From: a virus
IMG/VR virus record: IMGVR_UViG_3300025070_000231
Location: 1 to 24,363 of that record
Reading direction: 5' to 3' (one strand)
DNA length: 24,363 bases
The notes below the pieces were generated by a model that had not been told where the DNA came from, ran no database searches, and saw only the letters and a program-made list of their open reading frames with translations. Positions 1,423 through 24,363 of the stretch are shown in pieces (within the stretch, counting starts at the first letter, position 1; every line of letters begins with the position of its first letter). Position numbers and translations under genes: made by a program.

Positions 1423-2877
1423 ATGTTTAAATACAAGACAAAGCCATACGCGCACCAAGAGGTTGCGTTACAGAAGTCGTATGATAAAAAAAATTACGGC
1501 TACTTTATGGAGATGGGGTGTGGAAAATCGAAGGTTCTTATCGATAATATCACTTGGCTCTATGAGAATAAGAAGATTGACACCGCTGTTGTTGTTGCAC
1601 CCAAAGGTGTGTACCGCAACTGGGAGGTATCAGAAATACCAACTCACCTTCCAGAGGACATTGAACACGAGGTCTATGTTTGGAATCCAAACCCAAAGAA
1701 GAATCAGCGGGAGCACTTATCCGCAGGGGTTAGTCAGCGTGACAAGCTCCGCATCTTGCTGGTCAATGTTGAAGGGTTCGCAACAGCCAAGGTTAAGAAA
1801 TACTTGGATTTATTTACACAAGGTTCGGCTTACCTACTTGCAGTTGATGAGAGCACAACTATTAAAAACCCGAAGGCCAAGCGGACTAAGGCTCTGGTTG
1901 GACTTGGTCAAACAGCCGCGTACAAGCGTATCCTTACCGGATCGCCCGTTACTAAATCGCCTATGGATCTCTACGCGCAATGCGGATTCATGGACAAGGA
2001 GTTGCTTGGCTTCGACAGCTACTACTCCTTCCAGGGGAGGTACGCTATCACACGCACTCAGCGCATGGGTTCGCACAGCTTTCAGCAGATTGTGGGGTAC
2101 AGAAACCTCGACGAACTATCAACAAGGCTAAACTACTTTTCATATCGAGTGACAAAAGAAGATGCATTAGACCTACCTGATAAGGTCTACACTATTAGAG
2201 AAGTAGGAGTTACTGATGAGCAGTACAAATACTATCAGTCATTGAAGAGTGCTGCGATTGCTTTGCTTGATGAAGGCCAGCTAGTGTCTGCCCCTGCCGT
2301 GATGACACAACTACTTCGACTGCAACAGGTACTATGTGGTCACATCATGACAGATGATGGTGAGCTAGTAGAGTTTCCGACTCGGCGTATCGATGCCCTT
2401 CTGGACACAGTGCAGGAGATGTCCGGCAAAGTAATCATCTGGTCACGGTTCCGCTATGACATCAAGAAGATTGAGGCTGAGTTAGCCAAGGTTCATGGTC
2501 CGAGTTCCGTGGTCACATATTATGGGGACACCAGTGATGATGACAGGCAGACAGCGGTCAGAAGATTTCAGTTCGAGGATGCTAGGTTTTTTGTAGCTAA
2601 CCCACAGACAGCAGGCTATGGCCTAACACTAACGGCGGCGACCAATGTAATCTACTATGCCAATGACTTTAATCTTGAGACGAGGGTTCAGTCTGAGGAT
2701 CGGGCGCATCGAATAGGCCAGAAGCATTCGGTGACCTATGTGGATTTGGTATCGAAGGGGACAGTTGATGTTCATATAGTGAAGTCTCTTCGGGATAAGA
2801 TCGACTTGTCCGCGAAGACCCTTGGAGAAGAAGCTCGTCAATGGTTGGAACTGGACCCCCGGAAAAGTGACGATTAG
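1423..2877 (+). CDS. SNF2-like superfamily 2 DNA helicase/translocase
   Basis: This 484-aa enzyme is expected to use ATP to move along or remodel DNA during phage replication or recombination. Visible motifs, in order, are: an N-terminal Q-like region (YAHQEVALQKS, 9-19), Walker A MGCGKSK (31-37), VVVAPKGVYRNW (57-68, motif Ia region), Walker B as VDEST (141-145), motif III LTGSPV (171-176), VIIWSRF (337-343, motif IV), ANPQTAGYGLTLT (392-404, motif V) and QSEDRAHRIGQ (423-433, motif VI). The GQ after the arginine finger is typical of the SNF2 branch. The length matches compact phage members with no accessory domain. Start ATG 1423 follows GAGGGG. The last 209 bases overlap the antisense end of the minus-strand nuclease gene. 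Confidence 0.93.
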   Translation: MFKYKTKPYAHQEVALQKSYDKKNYGYFMEMGCGKSKVLIDNITWLYENKKIDTAVVVAPKGVYRNWEVSEIPTHLPEDIEHEVYVWNPNPKKNQREHLSAGVSQRDKLRILLVNVEGFATAKVKKYLDLFTQGSAYLLAVDESTTIKNPKAKRTKALVGLGQTAAYKRILTGSPVTKSPMDLYAQCGFMDKELLGFDSYYSFQGRYAITRTQRMGSHSFQQIVGYRNLDELSTRLNYFSYRVTKEDALDLPDKVYTIREVGVTDEQYKYYQSLKSAAIALLDEGQLVSAPAVMTQLLRLQQVLCGHIMTDDGELVEFPTRRIDALLDTVQEMSGKVIIWSRFRYDIKKIEAELAKVHGPSSVVTYYGDTSDDDRQTAVRRFQFEDARFFVANPQTAGYGLTLTAATNVIYYANDFNLETRVQSEDRAHRIGQKHSVTYVDLVSKGTVDVHIVKSLRDKIDLSAKTLGEEARQWLELDPRKSDD

Positions 2878-3220
2878 ATGTCTGTTGTTCTGCATACTTG
2901 GCGGCATTATTATTTGGATTACGGGATAGCTGGTGTGGATACAAAGCACAGATGTTTTCTTCGAGGTCTACATATAACAGGCGAACGCCCAGCTTTAGCT
3001 GGTTGGGCTTTAACATTCGAGAGATTATAGACCCATTCTTTCTGCGGCCTACAGTCTTTACGTCAAACAAAAAAAGCTCCCCATTGGGAGCTAGTGCAAT
3101 CAAATCTATCGGGCCTTGCTCGATGAAAGGAGAGTAGACATAGCAGTCTTGGGACACCAACCAAGCGGCGGCTATAAGTTCAGATCTTTTTCCGTCACGA
3201 ATCTGATGAGCAGGTCTCAT
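2669..3220 (-). CDS. PD-(D/E)XK nuclease-like protein, opposite strand in the early region
   Basis: The first 95 residues carry the pattern of a small PD-(D/E)XK nuclease fold: Glu14 in RDGKRSELIAAAWL, Asp39 in GPIDLIAL, and Asp53-x-Lys55 in LFLFDVKT. This suits a metal-dependent DNA endonuclease of the Holliday-resolvase, restriction or homing type; which one cannot be told. ATG 3220 has AAAGG about 10 bases upstream on the minus strand. Residues from about 115 onward are read antisense to the end of the SNF2-like helicase gene, and are Ser/Pro-rich with no recognisable domain, so the true functional unit may be the first ~110 residues. It is the only minus-strand gene in the left 10 kb, diverges from the RHH gene, and shares its palindrome. 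An own promoter and possible acquisition as a cassette are inferred. Confidence 0.75.
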   Translation of the reverse strand: MRPAHQIRDGKRSELIAAAWLVSQDCYVYSPFIEQGPIDLIALAPNGELFLFDVKTVGRRKNGSIISRMLKPNQLKLGVRLLYVDLEENICALYPHQLSRNPNNNAAKYAEQQTSNRHFSGGPVPTIDELLLQGSSRTSRSYPEETSLYEHQLSPSIPNPHRSPNASGLFDAPDPQTEPSSQD

Positions 3221-18481: not shown

Positions 18482-18711
18482 TAGGTAACAACCTTTACAG
18501 TACCACTATCATTATACAGCGCCCCTGCCTCAAGTCCAGTCGCGGAAGTTGGCAGATTAGTTAGCGTAATTGTTGTGCCCCGAAGACCTCCGGGGTTTCT
18601 TTCCTGTGAAATAAACAACTCTAAAGAACGAAGTAAGTCAGCCATATATGACCTTGAATACTGGTCAGGAGCTTCCGGCAATCTTGGCGGGGCAATCTGA
18701 TTACTTGACAT
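18481..18711 (-). CDS. Small structural-operon protein, 76 aa
   Basis: The N-terminal half is a helix (PDQYSRSYMADLLRSLELFI) after a Pro-rich start. The C-terminal half is short beta-like segments (TTITLTNLPTSATGLEAGAL) ending in NDSGTVKVVT. The segment LPTSATGLEAGALYNDSGTV is a pattern that recurs in tail or fibre proteins of marine phages, where it forms a small beta module. It is linked on both sides by TAATG overlaps, between the 1064-aa tail protein and the 278-aa virion protein. It could be a small head-tail or tail-tip component; the sequence does not settle this. Confidence 0.6.
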   Translation of the reverse strand: MSSNQIAPPRLPEAPDQYSRSYMADLLRSLELFISQERNPGGLRGTTITLTNLPTSATGLEAGALYNDSGTVKVVT

Positions 18712-21700
18712 TAGCGCCTCCCATCCTGACGAAGGTCTATGCGAGGGCTACCAAGTTTCCATTTTGAACCCAGCGCCTCAGATTCTACACGAAGTGCGAA
18801 AGAACGTCCACGAACTCTCAGAAATAGTTGGTCTGTATACTCTTCAACAGGGCTTTCTTGTGTTCTAATTGCATCTGATGAGGAAGTATTATTGAAGTTA
18901 GCGCCCGGAAAGTTACGAGCTTTCAAAGTAAATGTAGCCTGCGGAGAGCTAAGTGCTGTAGAACCAGTGAAAGTTAAGTCCGGTACAAGCCTTCTTATAT
19001 AAGAGAAGTGGTCCCCGTCACCTATGTCCATTGAGGCAGACTCAATAAACGAGTTCATAGGAGCACCGTCATCATCATACCCAAGCTCATGGTTGTACAA
19101 ATAACCACCGCCTGTTGCGAGAGGGAAGGTCCGAGTACCACGGTCCAACCACGCAGTTCTTGCAATCGAACCAAAAGTCCACACTTTTTCAAGGTAGTTG
19201 TATGTAACGTACTTGTTGTTTTCTTCAGAGTCAGCAGACGGGTAGAACCATGTTACTTCGCTAAACTCAGAGTTTACACCAGAAGCAACCTTTTGTATCT
19301 GAGATAGATTGAAGTCGCCAAACACCTTGTCCTTTACAGTACATGGTAGTTGTGAAGTCTGACCGGCGTAGACGAAGAATGAATCAATGCCCATCCAAAA
19401 AACAAAATCTTCAGAAGCAATCGCCGCGTTAGCGCTGGCAATAGTAATACCAGAAGCAAGCTGTTGAATACCAAAGGTGAATGGAGGGCCAATAAATCGC
19501 ATGCTATGTAGTGCAGTATCTGTCCATACTAGTATCTCACGCTTTGTTTCCACAGCCTGTATGAAGGTAGACCCTGCACCAAGACGTAAATCACCCGCCG
19601 TGTTGGTTGCTAAAGGATACCACTGCAAAGGATCTTCTTGGTCAGCAAAACGGATTAGTAAAGGATCTTGCACACCAGTTCCATTTATATCATTGACCCC
19701 ACCAATAGGATCAGCACCAAATGCAATCACATGTCTATCTTGGTCTGACACCAAAACCTGTTTTGCAATTGTAGGTATGCTTGTCTTTGTACCAGCTTTA
19801 GTATTAAGAGCTACGGCTCGTGAACTTGTACCAGTGGTTCTGTCCCAATAAAACAAACCCGCATTACGAGGATTGATAATTAAGTCTTCACCAAAGTTAT
19901 CTTGTGAGTAGGTTCTAAGTTCTACTTCTGTAGTCAGGCCACCAGAAGCCGCTATGCCCCAACCGAAAAAGTCATTGTCAACTTCTTCGTTACCCACAGC
20001 TAATAATACAATAGAGCCACTGACATGCGCTTCCGCCACTGTTCCTGACTGAGCTCGTGTGCAACCTGTTAAAGTATTTGTTGATACACCGCCAACAAGG
20101 ATAAGCTCTTGGTCAATAAGTATTGTGTCACCTGCTACTATGCCTGTGGCGCTGGTAACATCAATATCTGTTTCAGAGTTATCAATTGCCTCGGCAGCAG
20201 TAGTGCTAAGAGCAGCATTCGTGGTTCCGCCCCAAAGACCAGCGCCCCAGCCGACACCGCCAACTGTTGTATCTAATCCAACATTTAATTGATAATCTGC
20301 TATTGTTGGGTGGCTAAGAGAAGCTACAGTTATCGTGCAGTTATTAGCAGGGGTGGTTCCGCCTAAACTGGCTCCTGGAATAGTTATCGTGTCATTTATA
20401 GCATAACCAAGACCGATTAAAACAACCGAGTCTACGATGTATACCCCTGAACCGTTCCTTGTAATATCAAAACTTGCGCCACTACCACTACCGCTTGTGG
20501 CAGATTGAGTTACGTTGGAGTATGTCACAGATGTAAGCCCGGTTACAGTGAGGACAATATCATTAGCAGGGCTTGTGCCATTCAAGCTGGTCCCTGCAAT
20601 AGTTACAGTGTCGTTAATAGCATAGCCACTACCAATTGTGGTAACAGCTACGGTATAGTTTCCTGACCCGTCAGCAATCACTGTGAACTTAGCCCCAGAA
20701 CCACTGCCGCTTGTAGCGCTTTGGTCTACGTCATTGTATAACTCTGCCGTAGTATCCGCCGAACTTCCTGAAAGTCTTACAACTGTAAGAACAAGATCGT
20801 TAGCAGGACTTGACCCACCAATGCCACTACCTGCAATAGTCACTGTGTCTCCAACAGCATAGCCTGAACCTACTGTTGTAATTAAAACAGAGTAGCCACC
20901 TTCTCCATCTGTTCCCACAGTAAATGCAGCGCCCGACCCACTTCCGCTTGTAGCAGTTTGCGCCTCACCTGTGTGGGAAGCTTCTCCCGCCGAAGAACCC
21001 TGAAGACCAGTAATTGTAAGTGTTAGGTCATTTGTTTCCTTAACCCCACCAATGTTCTGTCCCTCAATAAGAATTGTATCTCCGACAGCGTAGCCTGATC
21101 CAAGCGATGTTGCTGTTACTGTGTAGTCACCAGAGCTTGCCACAACTGTAAACTCAGCGCTTGTACCAGTGCCGCTTGAGCTTGTTTGAACAACAGCAGT
21201 TGTAGTATCACTTCCTGTGGATGCTCCTGAAATGGTAAATGTACCAATACCTGTGCCGCTAGGATTCAGGAAGGACACAAGGCCAAGTCCAGTGCCTATC
21301 GCTGCTTTAGATGCAGTACCAATACCAGTTGAAGCCACCGCTGTGCCGGCAGAAGTAACTGTACCAACACCGTCGCCGCCTGCACCTGTGTCGCTGCTGT
21401 TGGCAGTGGCACTAACAGTTATCTGGTAAGAGTTTGAATCTACTACACCTGTTATCTGGTGTTCTTTATTAAGGAGCGGAGCGGTGATATTTCCGCCCAG
21501 TCCTTGAGCATTACTGAATGTTACAAAGTCCCCTTGATTAGAACCATTGTTTGCATCAGTAACGGTTATTATTGAGGAACCATTTGTTGCCGCAAAAGTT
21601 ACCTCGCCTAAAGAAGTTGTAGACCGGATAGGAGTAATGTCGTTAAAAGACTGCCCCTCTTCAATATAGTATTTAAGATTAGTGCCGACTCCCAAATAGT

Positions 21701-21905
21701 TAGCGCCATCCAGCGCCACCCAGTTATGAAGAGAACGAGCAGAGCCAAGATATGTAGAGCTAGAATATTTCTCCCAGCCCCCAATCTTTTCAGGATACCC
21801 TAAACGGAATCTTACCTTGTCACAATCGCGCCACCCACCTTCATTAGTGTATGAGGTTAAGTCACGATTTATGCCCGGTCTAAACTGTAACTTAGTTAGC
21901 GGCAT
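18711..21905 (-). CDS. Large tail/stabilisation-type structural protein with inserted repeat domains, 1064 aa
   Basis: The two ends belong to a phage virion family found in short-tailed phages, often annotated as packaged-DNA stabilisation or tail structural protein: start LQFRPGINRDLTSYTNEGGW (6-25) with RFRLGYPEKIGGW, and finish FALRVESEALGSKWKLGSPR followed by IDLRQDGRR. The core is beta-rich, with blocks such as LQWYPLATNTAGDLRLGAGS and VLVSDQDRHVIAFGADPIGG, suggesting a beta-propeller. Between about residues 95 and 655 it carries inserted modules: a beta domain (95-230), four GSGYA-type repeats (237-530), and a module with DIDVTSATGIVAGDTILIDQ (580-599) and LTGCTRAQSGT. The family is normally near 500 aa, so roughly half of this protein is insertion. 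Assignment by end motifs is fairly firm, the exact virion position is not. Confidence 0.75.
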   Translation of the reverse strand: MPLTKLQFRPGINRDLTSYTNEGGWRDCDKVRFRLGYPEKIGGWEKYSSSTYLGSARSLHNWVALDGANYLGVGTNLKYYIEEGQSFNDITPIRSTTSLGEVTFAATNGSSIITVTDANNGSNQGDFVTFSNAQGLGGNITAPLLNKEHQITGVVDSNSYQITVSATANSSDTGAGGDGVGTVTSAGTAVASTGIGTASKAAIGTGLGLVSFLNPSGTGIGTFTISGASTGSDTTTAVVQTSSSGTGTSAEFTVVASSGDYTVTATSLGSGYAVGDTILIEGQNIGGVKETNDLTLTITGLQGSSAGEASHTGEAQTATSGSGSGAAFTVGTDGEGGYSVLITTVGSGYAVGDTVTIAGSGIGGSSPANDLVLTVVRLSGSSADTTAELYNDVDQSATSGSGSGAKFTVIADGSGNYTVAVTTIGSGYAINDTVTIAGTSLNGTSPANDIVLTVTGLTSVTYSNVTQSATSGSGSGASFDITRNGSGVYIVDSVVLIGLGYAINDTITIPGASLGGTTPANNCTITVASLSHPTIADYQLNVGLDTTVGGVGWGAGLWGGTTNAALSTTAAEAIDNSETDIDVTSATGIVAGDTILIDQELILVGGVSTNTLTGCTRAQSGTVAEAHVSGSIVLLAVGNEEVDNDFFGWGIAASGGLTTEVELRTYSQDNFGEDLIINPRNAGLFYWDRTTGTSSRAVALNTKAGTKTSIPTIAKQVLVSDQDRHVIAFGADPIGGVNDINGTGVQDPLLIRFADQEDPLQWYPLATNTAGDLRLGAGSTFIQAVETKREILVWTDTALHSMRFIGPPFTFGIQQLASGITIASANAAIASEDFVFWMGIDSFFVYAGQTSQLPCTVKDKVFGDFNLSQIQKVASGVNSEFSEVTWFYPSADSEENNKYVTYNYLEKVWTFGSIARTAWLDRGTRTFPLATGGGYLYNHELGYDDDGAPMNSFIESASMDIGDGDHFSYIRRLVPDLTFTGSTALSSPQATFTLKARNFPGANFNNTSSSDAIRTQESPVEEYTDQLFLRVRGRSFALRVESEALGSKWKLGSPRIDLRQDGRR
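20316..21197 (-). repeat. Four tandem 72-79-residue repeats in the tail protein
   Basis: Protein residues 237-530 contain four related units starting near 237, 315, 394 and 466. Each has a Ser/Gly start (SATSGSGSGAxF), a short beta stretch, GSGYAxxDTxTIxG and a closing TxPANDxxLTVxxL. Unit 1 is the most diverged; units 2-4 share SATSGSGSGA (TATSGSGSGA in unit 2). The same GYxxGDTxxIxG signature is known from fibres and tail proteins of marine phages, where it forms small beta modules. At DNA level the similarity is clear but not exact, so recombination between units is possible. Confidence 0.85.
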
Positions 21906-21907
21906 TT

Positions 21908-23236
21908 TTAGTAATACTCCTCGACTATAACAATGCCGGAACCGCCAGAACCACCTGTTCTCGCTGTGTCGAATCCTTCAGCATATGCTGGACCGCCACC
22001 AGCGCCAGTGTTTGCTACTCCATTTGTGCCGTTGCCTCTGCTTGCAGGACGGGACCTATTACCACCAAATATAGAAAACCCGCTAGTTCCAAGCCCACCT
22101 ATAGTTCCTCTTATGTTAATCTTGCCACCTGACCCATTTCCGCCGTTAGCACTTGGCTCTATCACAGTCGCACTGCCGCCACCAGTGCCAGCACCGCCAC
22201 TACCCCCTGACGCGCTACAGAAAGAACCAAATGATGAAGTCCCACCAGATGAGCCAGCAGTGCCAGGAAAATTGCCATTGCTGCCCACGCCGCCGCTTCC
22301 ACCAGCACCTCTTGTAACAGTAACAGAAGAAGTGCCTGTCACATCAATATACTCAATCGCTGCACCGCCGCCACCGCCGCCCTGTGTAGTGTAGTTACCA
22401 CCTGATGAATTAGCTCCGCCGGCACCGCCGCCGCCACCAACTACAGTTACTTTAACCGTTTTACAACCAGTCGGCCTGTTCCAGGTTCCAGAACTGGTAA
22501 ATTTTTGTATTGTAGGAGGAGATGATATTGAACTGGTATTTGTATAACTAAAGCTACCGTCTCCATCGCTAGTAACTAACTGACCAGCGGTGCCGTCTCC
22601 AGAAATATTTATTGCCGCAGCACCAACTGAATTATCTGCTATTGCATCCGCACCAACAGCATCATCAGCAATCAAATCTGCAGTAATGGCATCGTCTGCT
22701 ATGGATGCAGTTACAACAGCATCATCAGCAATAGCGGCGGTAACGACTGCATCATCAGCAATCTTGTCCGCAGTAACAGCATCATCAGCAATAGAGCTTG
22801 TGCCGATACTGCCAGCAGAAGCAATAGGTTTAATCTCTGCAACCGCTGCACCGGATCCTGCGCCGTTAGCATATATAATAGCTTGTGTTCCGTTTAATAC
22901 TGTCACACTAGCGCCGGAGCCTTGAGTAAAGACAGCGCTTTGACCAGAGCCATTTGATACAAAGTAAAGCTTCTCTTGGTCGTTAGGACTAATAGTAATT
23001 GTGTTTGTACCAGATGGAGAACCTGCCAGTACAAGAACCTTATTCATGCCGTCAGTTACTGTTCCATCGGTTGTGGTTAGTGTGTGTGTTGTACCCGACA
23101 ATGTAATTGTCACTACACCATTTAAAGCTGTGTCGATAATATCAAAGTTACGATTGGAGGTTGTCCCCCAAGTACCGGCTTGTTCGCCGGTTCCAATCTT
23201 TTCAATACCCGTATTTGATGTATATGTACTAGCCAT
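21908..23236 (-). CDS. Tail fibre with ADDAV repeats and Gly-rich C-terminal domain, 442 aa
   Basis: A fibre or adhesin in three parts. The N-terminus (MASTYTSNTGIEKIGTGEQA, then GTWGTTSNRNFDIID) is a familiar virion-attachment module of marine phage fibres, followed by a beta domain to about 140. Residues 148-208 are six decapeptide repeats of IADDAVxAxx type, expected to form a trimeric shaft. From 240 on, KFTSSGTWNRPTGCKTVKVT leads into a long Gly-rich domain (VVGGGGGAGG, YTTQGGGGGGAA and more) ending GGSGIVIVEEYY; such domains form polyglycine-II sandwiches at the receptor-binding tip in other phages (known of the family). Start ATG 23236 directly abuts the previous stop, behind AGAAGG. 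Host-range determinant by inference. Confidence 0.85.
   Translation of the reverse strand: MASTYTSNTGIEKIGTGEQAGTWGTTSNRNFDIIDTALNGVVTITLSGTTHTLTTTDGTVTDGMNKVLVLAGSPSGTNTITISPNDQEKLYFVSNGSGQSAVFTQGSGASVTVLNGTQAIIYANGAGSGAAVAEIKPIASAGSIGTSSIADDAVTADKIADDAVVTAAIADDAVVTASIADDAITADLIADDAVGADAIADNSVGAAAINISGDGTAGQLVTSDGDGSFSYTNTSSISSPPTIQKFTSSGTWNRPTGCKTVKVTVVGGGGGAGGANSSGGNYTTQGGGGGGAAIEYIDVTGTSSVTVTRGAGGSGGVGSNGNFPGTAGSSGGTSSFGSFCSASGGSGGAGTGGGSATVIEPSANGGNGSGGKINIRGTIGGLGTSGFSIFGGNRSRPASRGNGTNGVANTGAGGGPAYAEGFDTARTGGSGGSGIVIVEEYY
22613..22795 (-). repeat. Six decapeptide ADDAV repeats in the fibre shaft
   Basis: Residues 148-208 consist of six 10-residue units (for example SIADDAVTAD, KIADDAVVTA, LIADDAVGAD), a 30-base period. 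The plus-strand DNA shows GCATCATCAGCAAT four times. The last unit decays to AIADNSVGAA. Copy number is likely to vary among relatives by slippage or recombination. Confidence 0.9.
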
Positions 23237-24013
23237 TTAAACTACCTTCTCTGTCCACTGGTCTATTGTACCACCAGCATCTATTTGTGTCCATGTATCA
23301 CCCGTGTGAACTATCTGTGTCCAAGACTCTGGGTCGGCTCCTGCATTAATAGGCTCCCATAACAATCCGCCAGCGGATGTTTGTGTGAAGTTAAACGACA
23401 TACTGGCGGTGCCTAAGAAACGAAATCCACCAAGCGCTGACAAGGTGGAATCAGACAGCATGCTAGATACGGCAGATACAAGCAGGCCACCGTTTACTGT
23501 TTGCGTAAAGTCGCTTTTTACTTCAAAAAAAGAACTTCTTATTCTGGTCTCAGTCGTTGTCTGCGTGAAGTTAAAGTCTTGCGTGGATCCTGTTATCTGA
23601 ACCCTTGTTCCTACAGAGTCTTGCGTGAAGTTCGCATCCTGAGTAGAGGTGCCAACAAAAATACCATTAGCCGCCGCTGTTTCAGTGAAGCTAGATACTT
23701 GAGTAGATACCCCTTCAAAAATCTCAGTGCCCACAGTTGTCTGCGTGAAGTTCGCATCCATAGTTTGTGAGGCAGACGCTATGCGAATTGACGTAGCTGT
23801 TTCAGTGAAGCTGGAGATAATATCTGTAGTACCTGCAAGGATGCCTACACCGATAGAAGCCTTACTTGATGTTCCTATCATCTCGGCTTCGCCAGAAGCT
23901 ATGTAGGTAAGGTTAGACGACTGAGTAAAGCTTGCATCCATAGTCTGCTCGGCAGGAAGAACAATCCCCTGCGTGGCTATCGGCTGCTCAGATATGGACG
24001 AGACAGCAAACAT
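23237..24013 (-). CDS. Fibre-like virion protein made of 20-residue repeats, 258 aa
   Basis: After a 20-residue start (MFAVSSISEQPIATQGIVLP, itself perhaps a worn unit), residues 21-220 are ten 20-residue units in exact register, centred on NFTQT or SFTET. The C-terminus (WTQIVHTGDTWTQIDAGGT, then IDQWTEKVV) is a WTQI/WTEI module common at the ends of marine phage structural proteins. There is no enzyme motif and no cysteine. A strict 20-residue period rich in Thr, Ser, Asn and Phe suggests a beta-solenoid or triple-stranded fibre. It starts inside the preceding stop (TAATG) and its stop abuts the Gly-rich fibre gene, so both fibre-type proteins are made together. The family is not one I can name. 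Confidence 0.75.
   Translation of the reverse strand: MFAVSSISEQPIATQGIVLPAEQTMDASFTQSSNLTYIASGEAEMIGTSSKASIGVGILAGTTDIISSFTETATSIRIASASQTMDANFTQTTVGTEIFEGVSTQVSSFTETAAANGIFVGTSTQDANFTQDSVGTRVQITGSTQDFNFTQTTTETRIRSSFFEVKSDFTQTVNGGLLVSAVSSMLSDSTLSALGGFRFLGTASMSFNFTQTSAGGLLWEPINAGADPESWTQIVHTGDTWTQIDAGGTIDQWTEKVV
23354..23953 (-). repeat. Ten 60-base / 20-residue tandem repeats in exact register
   Basis: Position 10 of each unit falls at residues 30, 50, 70 and so on to 210 without any insertion or deletion. Seven of the ten carry the core FTQ or FTE followed by T, D or S. Units 2 and 9 have lost it (GTSSKASIG and LSDSTLSALG). Unit ends favour Gly at positions 15-16 and Ile/Leu at 17-18. The plus strand repeats TGCGTGAAGTT or TTCAGTGAAGCT at 60-base steps. 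Confidence 0.9.
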
Positions 24014-24183
24014 TAGTCAGCATCCGCAATGGTTAGTTCGCCAGCGTTTACTTGACGCATGATTTCTGCGTAGTGTCTGTTGGCTGGGTCTAGGGGTATA
24101 TGTAATTCATGCCCATCAACCGTTGCTTTGATTGTCAGCTTAATGCTATTTTCTGCAAAGTATTGTGCTGATGTAATATCCAT
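24013..24183 (-). CDS. Small virion-operon protein, 56 aa
   Basis: The start is ATG 24183, with GCGGAG eight bases upstream; the in-frame ATG at 24198 lies on that ribosome site and inside the preceding gene, so it is rejected. The product begins MDITSAQYFAENSIKLTIKA and ends with the block HIPLDPANRHYAEIMRQVNA, then GELTIADAD. The NRHYAEIMRQVxAGELTIADAD type of ending is one I associate with small proteins beside tail genes of marine phages. It has a beta hairpin followed by a helix and is acidic at the end. It is one base from the upstream stop and shares a base with the downstream start (TAATG). Role unknown, possibly a tail chaperone or small tail component. Confidence 0.65.
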   Translation of the reverse strand: MDITSAQYFAENSIKLTIKATVDGHELHIPLDPANRHYAEIMRQVNAGELTIADAD

Positions 24184-24184
24184 T

Positions 24185-24363
24185 TTATAACTCCGCATCT
24201 ACATATAAGATTGGGTCATCTGCCGAACCACCCTGTTTGTTCATATAACCAGCATGACCGACAGTAAGGTTGCCTGTGTCTTTCTGAAACTGCAATCTGG
24301 TGCTTTGATAAGGAAAATCAGTTTGTGTAGAAACATTAACCGTTCCATTACATTGCTGGTCCC
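24185..24363 (-). CDS. C-terminal fragment of a virion structural protein
   Basis: Open from the right edge to TAA (24187-24185 on the minus strand), giving the last 58 residues. It is mainly beta-like: DFPYQSTRLQFQKDTGNLTV, then GHAGYMNKQGGSADDPILYV and DAEL. The N-terminal part of the gene is outside the window. The polar, Gly/Thr-rich, cysteine-poor composition and the position upstream of two fibre-type genes in the same operon suggest a tail or other virion surface protein. The family cannot be named from this fragment. Confidence 0.65.
   Translation of the reverse strand, partial: DQQCNGTVNVSTQTDFPYQSTRLQFQKDTGNLTVGHAGYMNKQGGSADDPILYVDAEL

Follow-up and report, generated by a model that had tools for sequence, protein, structure and literature searches.

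We describe an unnamed yet widespread family of repeat proteins, defined here in uncultivated marine phages, that follows a near-strict whole-unit length rule: relatives change length almost only by 20-residue repeats gained or dropped. The member considered here is encoded in the window, by which we mean the whole stretch of DNA that was analyzed, a 24,363-base source record that is probably a fragment because it is classed as linear. We consider it reasonably probable that this protein is a structural component of a marine phage whose tail hub is P22 gp10-like, that it belongs to the tail-fibre module, and that it forms a shaft of beta-structured units between docking ends. What is new is the repeat family; the kind of system is not, and repetitive phage fibres are common. 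The family makes it possible to ask whether fibre length follows unit number and whether the shaft is exchanged while the docking ends stay. In addition, many "hypothetical proteins" adjoining tail-fibre genes could receive names.

Ten units in one phase

ORF calling and the family alignment give the following organization of the repeat gene, in window positions.

23237..24013, minus strand: repeat-protein gene, 258 amino acids, stop codon at 23237-23239
23954..24013, minus strand: N-cap, residues 1-20, MFAVSSISEQPIATQGIVLP, identical in 6 of 6 close relatives
23894..23953, minus strand: unit 1, residues 21-40, FTQ core
23834..23893, minus strand: unit 2, residues 41-60, special unit GEAEMIGTSSKASIGVGILA, in which Lys replaces the core Gln
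23774..23833, minus strand: unit 3, residues 61-80, FTE core
23714..23773, minus strand: unit 4, residues 81-100, FTQ core
23654..23713, minus strand: unit 5, residues 101-120, FTE core
23594..23653, minus strand: unit 6, residues 121-140, FTQ core
23534..23593, minus strand: unit 7, residues 141-160, FTQ core
23474..23533, minus strand: unit 8, residues 161-180, FTQ core, the fastest changing against 5 of 6 close relatives
23414..23473, minus strand: unit 9, residues 181-200, core STL
23354..23413, minus strand: unit 10, residues 201-220, FTQ core, LLW at 217-219
23240..23353, minus strand: Trp-repeat C-tail, residues 221-258, with Trp at 231, 241 and 253 following that at 219 in unit 10

All eight occurrences of FT[QE], at residues 29, 69, 89, 109, 129, 149, 169 and 209, fall in a single phase, at position 9 of the unit, and the in-register residues 49 and 189 read SSK and STL. 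Identity at a lag of 20 over residues 21-220 is 0.267, a value equaled in none of 10,000 shuffles. A previous sequence-only reading had described ten 20-residue units in one phase at 23354-23953, and this is borne out, the interval corresponding exactly to residues 21-220. At the DNA level, the units of the gene are at most 0.60 identical to one another and no array was reported at the repeat region by Tandem Repeats Finder, which indicates that the repeat is old and has been kept at the protein level by selection. The gene is under purifying selection, with a dN/dS of 0.22-0.31 against six relatives.

Among 192 units selected by F at position 9, the consensus is G-V-S-T-M/Q-D-A/F-N-F-T-Q-T-S-x-G-x-x-I/V-x-S, with Q11 in 150 units, G15 in 101 and I, V or L at position 18 in 168. 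Unit 2 departs from this pattern in a consistent manner. Its residues G47, T48 and K51 are invariant in the family alignment A2, a conservation that is partly selected, since the loci of A2 were chosen by the pattern MIGT[SA][ST]K. With other search seeds, a variant of unit 2 persists in eight proteins, in which the Lys is mostly kept (it is missing in locus L112). The sequence-only reading had called the unit at residue 49 degenerate, along with that at 189; both are in register as it stated, but judged by its sequence the residue-49 unit is a specific, kept unit with no decay.

At the core of unit 9, the window protein and L002 have STL, and the remaining five close relatives have FTL or FSL. 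Unit 8 (23474-23533, minus strand) is a hot spot of change: its identity is 0.5, 0.5, 0.55, 0.5 and 0.2 against L003, L005, L006, L007 and L009, a range of 20-55%, compared to 0.95 against L002, and most other units are far closer. Replacement of the unit by recombination is one possible reading of this sequence divergence. In L048, the first units resemble recent duplicates (DNA identity 0.80 and 0.75).

A family that changes length by whole units

Viral contigs were scanned four times, with the window protein, an alignment, L021 and L062 as queries. The resulting family comprises 111 ORF occurrences, which reduce to 52 distinct proteins (48 complete) and to 28 representatives at 80% identity, two of which are the halves of one gene broken in L050. 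In that locus (L050:6001-6716), a frameshift or an assembly error divides the repeat gene into ORFs of 107 and 96 amino acids. The window protein has all of the features by which we define this FTQ family, namely 20-residue units, the N-cap, the special unit 2, the Trp tail and a downstream fibre gene.

The sequence-only reading had proposed, as a test of the repeat, to compare homologue lengths with multiples of 20 residues, and in the repeat region this test came out in its favor. Multiples of 20 account for 149 of 160 core-to-core spacings in the 28 representatives. This is the unbiased count, compared to 208 of 209 spacings in 26 proteins in a separate count whose scoring favored 20. Similarly, an independent landmark distance, measured between the MIGT motif and the last LW, amounts to 174 or 154 residues (a single class modulo 20) in 16 of the 17 proteins with both landmarks and to 155 in the other, the 11 of 28 representatives in which this distance is absent being left out. 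Equivalents of W219 lie at residues 219, 199 and 119, the last in L112, 100 residues short of the window protein. The 11 off-phase spacings are 21 in four cases and 8, 12, 22, 26, 41, 48 and 57 once each, and L074 contains an irregular stretch. The claim that the units contain no indels therefore holds for the window protein but not for the family as a whole.

Conserved ends and proposed architecture

The N-cap and the Trp C-tail stay nearly identical while the units between them diverge. The N-cap is unchanged across all six close relatives, one of them only 63% identical overall, and the Trp tail keeps 92-97% identity to the six, including L009, where the units drop to 20-85%. W219, W231, W241 and W253 are nearly invariant in the family alignment. 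The length of the tail varies by added 10-residue copies, as in L034, L102, L109 and L048.

In the architecture that we propose, the 20-residue N-cap and the Trp-rich C-tail are probable docking sites for partners, perhaps including the tail-fibre product of the adjacent gene, and a shaft of 20-residue beta-structured units would lie between these ends. Each unit would form an amphipathic strand with positions 5, 7, 9 and 11 facing inward and F9 and Q11 arranged as ladders, followed by a second short strand at I/V18, with G15 and G1 separating the strands. Because the units would be stacked in register, such a shaft could in practice gain or lose whole units only.

A tail-fibre gene neighborhood

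Three genes surround the repeat gene in the window.

21908..23236, minus strand: tail-fibre gene, next after the repeat gene, matching a PHROG tail family (8.9e-37) and Gly_rich_2 (2.5e-12)
18711..21905, minus strand: packaged-DNA stabilization / tail hub gene, matching a PHROG virion structural family (8.4e-65) and genes annotated as stabilization protein
24013..24198, minus strand: small upstream ORF, 61 amino acids, with a start-stop overlap with the repeat gene

From the stabilization annotation we take the hub protein (18711-21905) to be P22 gp10-like, and beyond its gene lie proteins matching tape-measure and DNA-ejection PHROGs. In most loci the fibre gene begins without a gap after the stop codon of the repeat gene. 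A GxWG-type fibre gene is found downstream in 24 of the 26 representatives with room for one, a count based on inspection of N-termini by eye (the motif script alone caught 16 of 28) from which L043, for lack of room, and the first of the two L050 halves were dropped; the two lacking it are L049 and L052. Of ten proteins scanned upstream of the repeat gene in L029, L034, L062 and L045, nine have hits among tail-fibre, tail-spike or virion-structural PHROGs; the tenth matches an unknown PHROG only. This context lends support to the earlier description of the protein as fibre-like and suggests that it is part of the virion.

Several other features of these genes were observed. The tail-fibre protein (21908-23236) has a MASTY...GTWG N-terminus, a short IADDAV(V)TA repeat in mid-protein and a glycine-rich C-terminal domain. 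The hub protein, of 1064 amino acids, contains at residues ~200-560 an insert of ~79-residue repeats of the GSGYAVGDT type, which also match cyanophage structural proteins, and its relative in L004 has 710 amino acids only. Elsewhere in the window, a 183-amino-acid ORF at 2669-3220 (minus strand), which by eye we presume to be nuclease-like, runs in the opposite direction to its helicase-like neighbor.

Database searches

The sequence-only reading did not recognize the repeat as a named family, and this stands against Pfam and PHROGs. Nothing convincing was found in either for the window protein (best Pfam E 0.3, best PHROG E 0.021) or for L062, L049 and L048, for which the best Pfam match (E 0.017) was under its cut-off. 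Against 50,697 phage records, tblastn found nothing with the window protein or L021 as query and weak matches only with L038, L049 and L062; a search for the Trp tail in phages was likewise weak (best E 0.02). Two queries against 84,980 species genomes brought up no confirmed relative, and alignment A2 found nothing in four named phage records with the same hub gene. PDB profile searches yielded no convincing family and no solved triple-spiral relative; sequence-profile matches to S-layer and IgA-protease entries (E 0.0096 to 0.032) were read as composition. Judged by listings and abstracts, no description of an FTQ 20-residue repeat was found in a full-text literature search that included parts of PMC9599517 and PMC10611076, with subscription titles mostly outside its range.

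Predicted fold and alternative explanations

Full-length AlphaFold2 (AF2) prediction from alignment A2 gave a pLDDT of 31.2, with most residues below 35. A first repeat alignment, A3, was staggered (240 columns) and was replaced by the in-register alignment A4, in which 24 of 117 five-unit stretches, taken by greedy choice, deliberately place non-equivalent units in one register, so that a 20-residue period is built in. A 100-residue AF2 model from A4 has three strands per unit, at positions 3-5, 8-14 and 17-20 (pLDDT 54.2, pTM 0.41), and the other four A4 models have a pLDDT of 28-44. On these models, the units are likely to have beta structure. Foldseek of the A4 model found nothing at E <= 0.001 in the PDB or the viral library; the best PDB probability among the matches listed was 0.25, and the best viral match, which carries no name, had a probability of 1.00 and an E of 0.0068. 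Most rows that VIA-align gave for the same model are beta-solenoids, Z reaching 7.8, where Z < 8 may mean only a common arrangement. The solenoid rows at 2.4-3.5 A rmsd cover ~80-100 residues, and the CBA120 tailspike, bactofilin and haemolysin A are among them. The suggestion that one unit makes one turn or rung is weakly supported: the full-length model is of very low confidence, and the regular solenoid appeared only when the register was forced.

Several points stand against the explanation that we favor, a beta-unit shaft between docking ends: the full-length prediction is poor; the regular model arises partly by construction, with four of five models below a pLDDT of 45; its Z values stay under 8; sequence of low complexity and rich in S and T may seem repetitive although no rigid fold underlies it; and a few relatives depart from the 20-residue rule. 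The shaft could take either of two finer forms. A single-chain beta-solenoid with one turn per 20-residue unit is a real possibility, somewhat short of even, and accounts for the strands of the in-register model, the prevalence of beta-solenoids in the VIA-align rows and the best viral-library match; the low pLDDT and pTM of that model, its weak PDB matches and the bias of its alignment argue against it. A trimeric beta-fibre of the triple beta-spiral or triple beta-helix type, in which one unit is one trimer repeat, is plausible at rather less than an even chance. The strand-Gly turn-strand unit with alternating hydrophobics fits such a shaft, and trimers are usual for tail fibres of the kind that the neighboring genes encode. 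The poor full-length monomer prediction is also consistent with a trimer, as monomer AF2 often fails on obligate trimers. Nevertheless, the sole regular model is a single-chain solenoid, and the profile searches brought up no solved triple-spiral structure.

Other explanations dispense with the shaft or place it elsewhere. A flexible S/T-rich spacer with no regular fold, in which the 20-residue phase merely records unit duplication, would explain the full-length prediction and the composition rich in S, T, A and G. We regard it as unlikely, since a flexible spacer would tolerate one-residue indels, yet exact length is kept among units at most 0.60 identical in DNA, the 149 of 160 spacings hold across 28 diverged proteins, and Q11, G15 and I/V18 are kept. 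Fibrous repeat proteins also occur on phage heads, so the protein could be a head fibre or capsid decoration protein; this is improbable given that its neighbors are tail-fibre, tail-spike and hub genes. The least credible alternative is a curli-like secreted amyloid. CsgA curlin repeats are beta units of ~20 residues with a Gln ladder, as is proposed for the FTQ unit. The curli genes CsgA/B, CsgF and CsgG are reported from HTVC023P-type pelagiphages in PMC9599517. A curli identity was rejected, as PF07012 matches neither the window protein nor the searched phages, and CsgG and the curlin repeat were each found in 0 of 14 records, most of them possibly incomplete, in searches whose positive controls were detected.

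Comparison with known systems

Two kinds of beta-structured viral protein resemble the window protein as modeled or proposed here. CBA120 TSP1, a beta-solenoid tailspike, superposes weakly on the in-register model, with a Z of 7.2 and an rmsd of 2.9 across 96 residues, and gives no sequence match; unlike it, the window protein has no visible enzyme domain and its caps are very short. The triple beta-spiral fibres of adenovirus and reovirus have, like the FTQ unit as proposed, a short beta repeat with a Gly turn and alternating hydrophobics. Their repeat is ~15 residues long, compared to 20 in the window protein, to which they have no profile match.

A strict 20-residue period is also present in Lactobacillus phage tail proteins (Bromius AYH92260.1 and SA-C12 ALY06833.1; L081 and L082), with lag-20 identities of 0.35 for Bromius and 0.41 for SA-C12, but their unit, KTQTASQIADRVSNSAFSTY, is of a different sequence type. 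These two proteins were considered as relatives of L062 (tblastn E 0.6 and 2) and rejected as another 20-residue repeat.

The closest parallels in gene position are hypothetical proteins with VTG repeats in HTVC023P (gp68, a Pelagibacter phage), 023Pt_psg01 (URG13121.1) and DSL-LC04 (WJZ48131.1), each adjoining a MAST...GTWG-type fibre gene, together with gp68 of HTVC027P, which has the same gene place and less regular repeats. Like the window protein, all four occupy the slot directly upstream of the fibre gene, and they end in what looks like a C-terminal Trp tail; the proteins of HTVC023P and 023Pt_psg01 also have an N-cap that resembles that of the FTQ family. In contrast, the unit of the first three has 22 residues, is of the VTG type and lacks FTQ cores, whereas the window protein has a period of 20 and no VTG unit, and the N-termini of the DSL-LC04 and HTVC027P proteins differ from the FTQ family N-cap. 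The slot adjoining the fibre gene thus holds Trp-tail repeat proteins, mostly of the 22-residue VTG type, in named phages (L056:2988-3668, L117:1150-2280, L118:2995-3444 and L120:618-1583), where they are annotated as hypothetical only.

Among 953 ORFs, 52 of them family-like, the top non-family ORFs for an N-cap HMM, with L043/L046 set aside, were those of 023Pt_psg01 (E 0.0019) and HTVC023P gp68 (E 0.18). A Trp-tail HMM gave no separation, with HTVC027P (E 0.27) and HTVC023P (E 0.46) among unrelated rows. A profile comparison of FTQ and VTG proteins aligned the N-cap alone, over 17 residues, with an E of 0.0063 and a probability of 6. By sequence comparison, common descent of the ends of the FTQ and VTG proteins appears likely. 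We speculate, as a tentative and rather doubtful extension, that hub-bearing phages of marine and freshwater environments share one fibre-adaptor slot, in which the docking ends are fixed and the shaft is swapped among length-quantized types, including the 22-residue VTG repeat and the 20-residue FTQ repeat; the latter would be a new repeat class with a Lys-bearing second unit and would act as a molecular ruler set by unit number.
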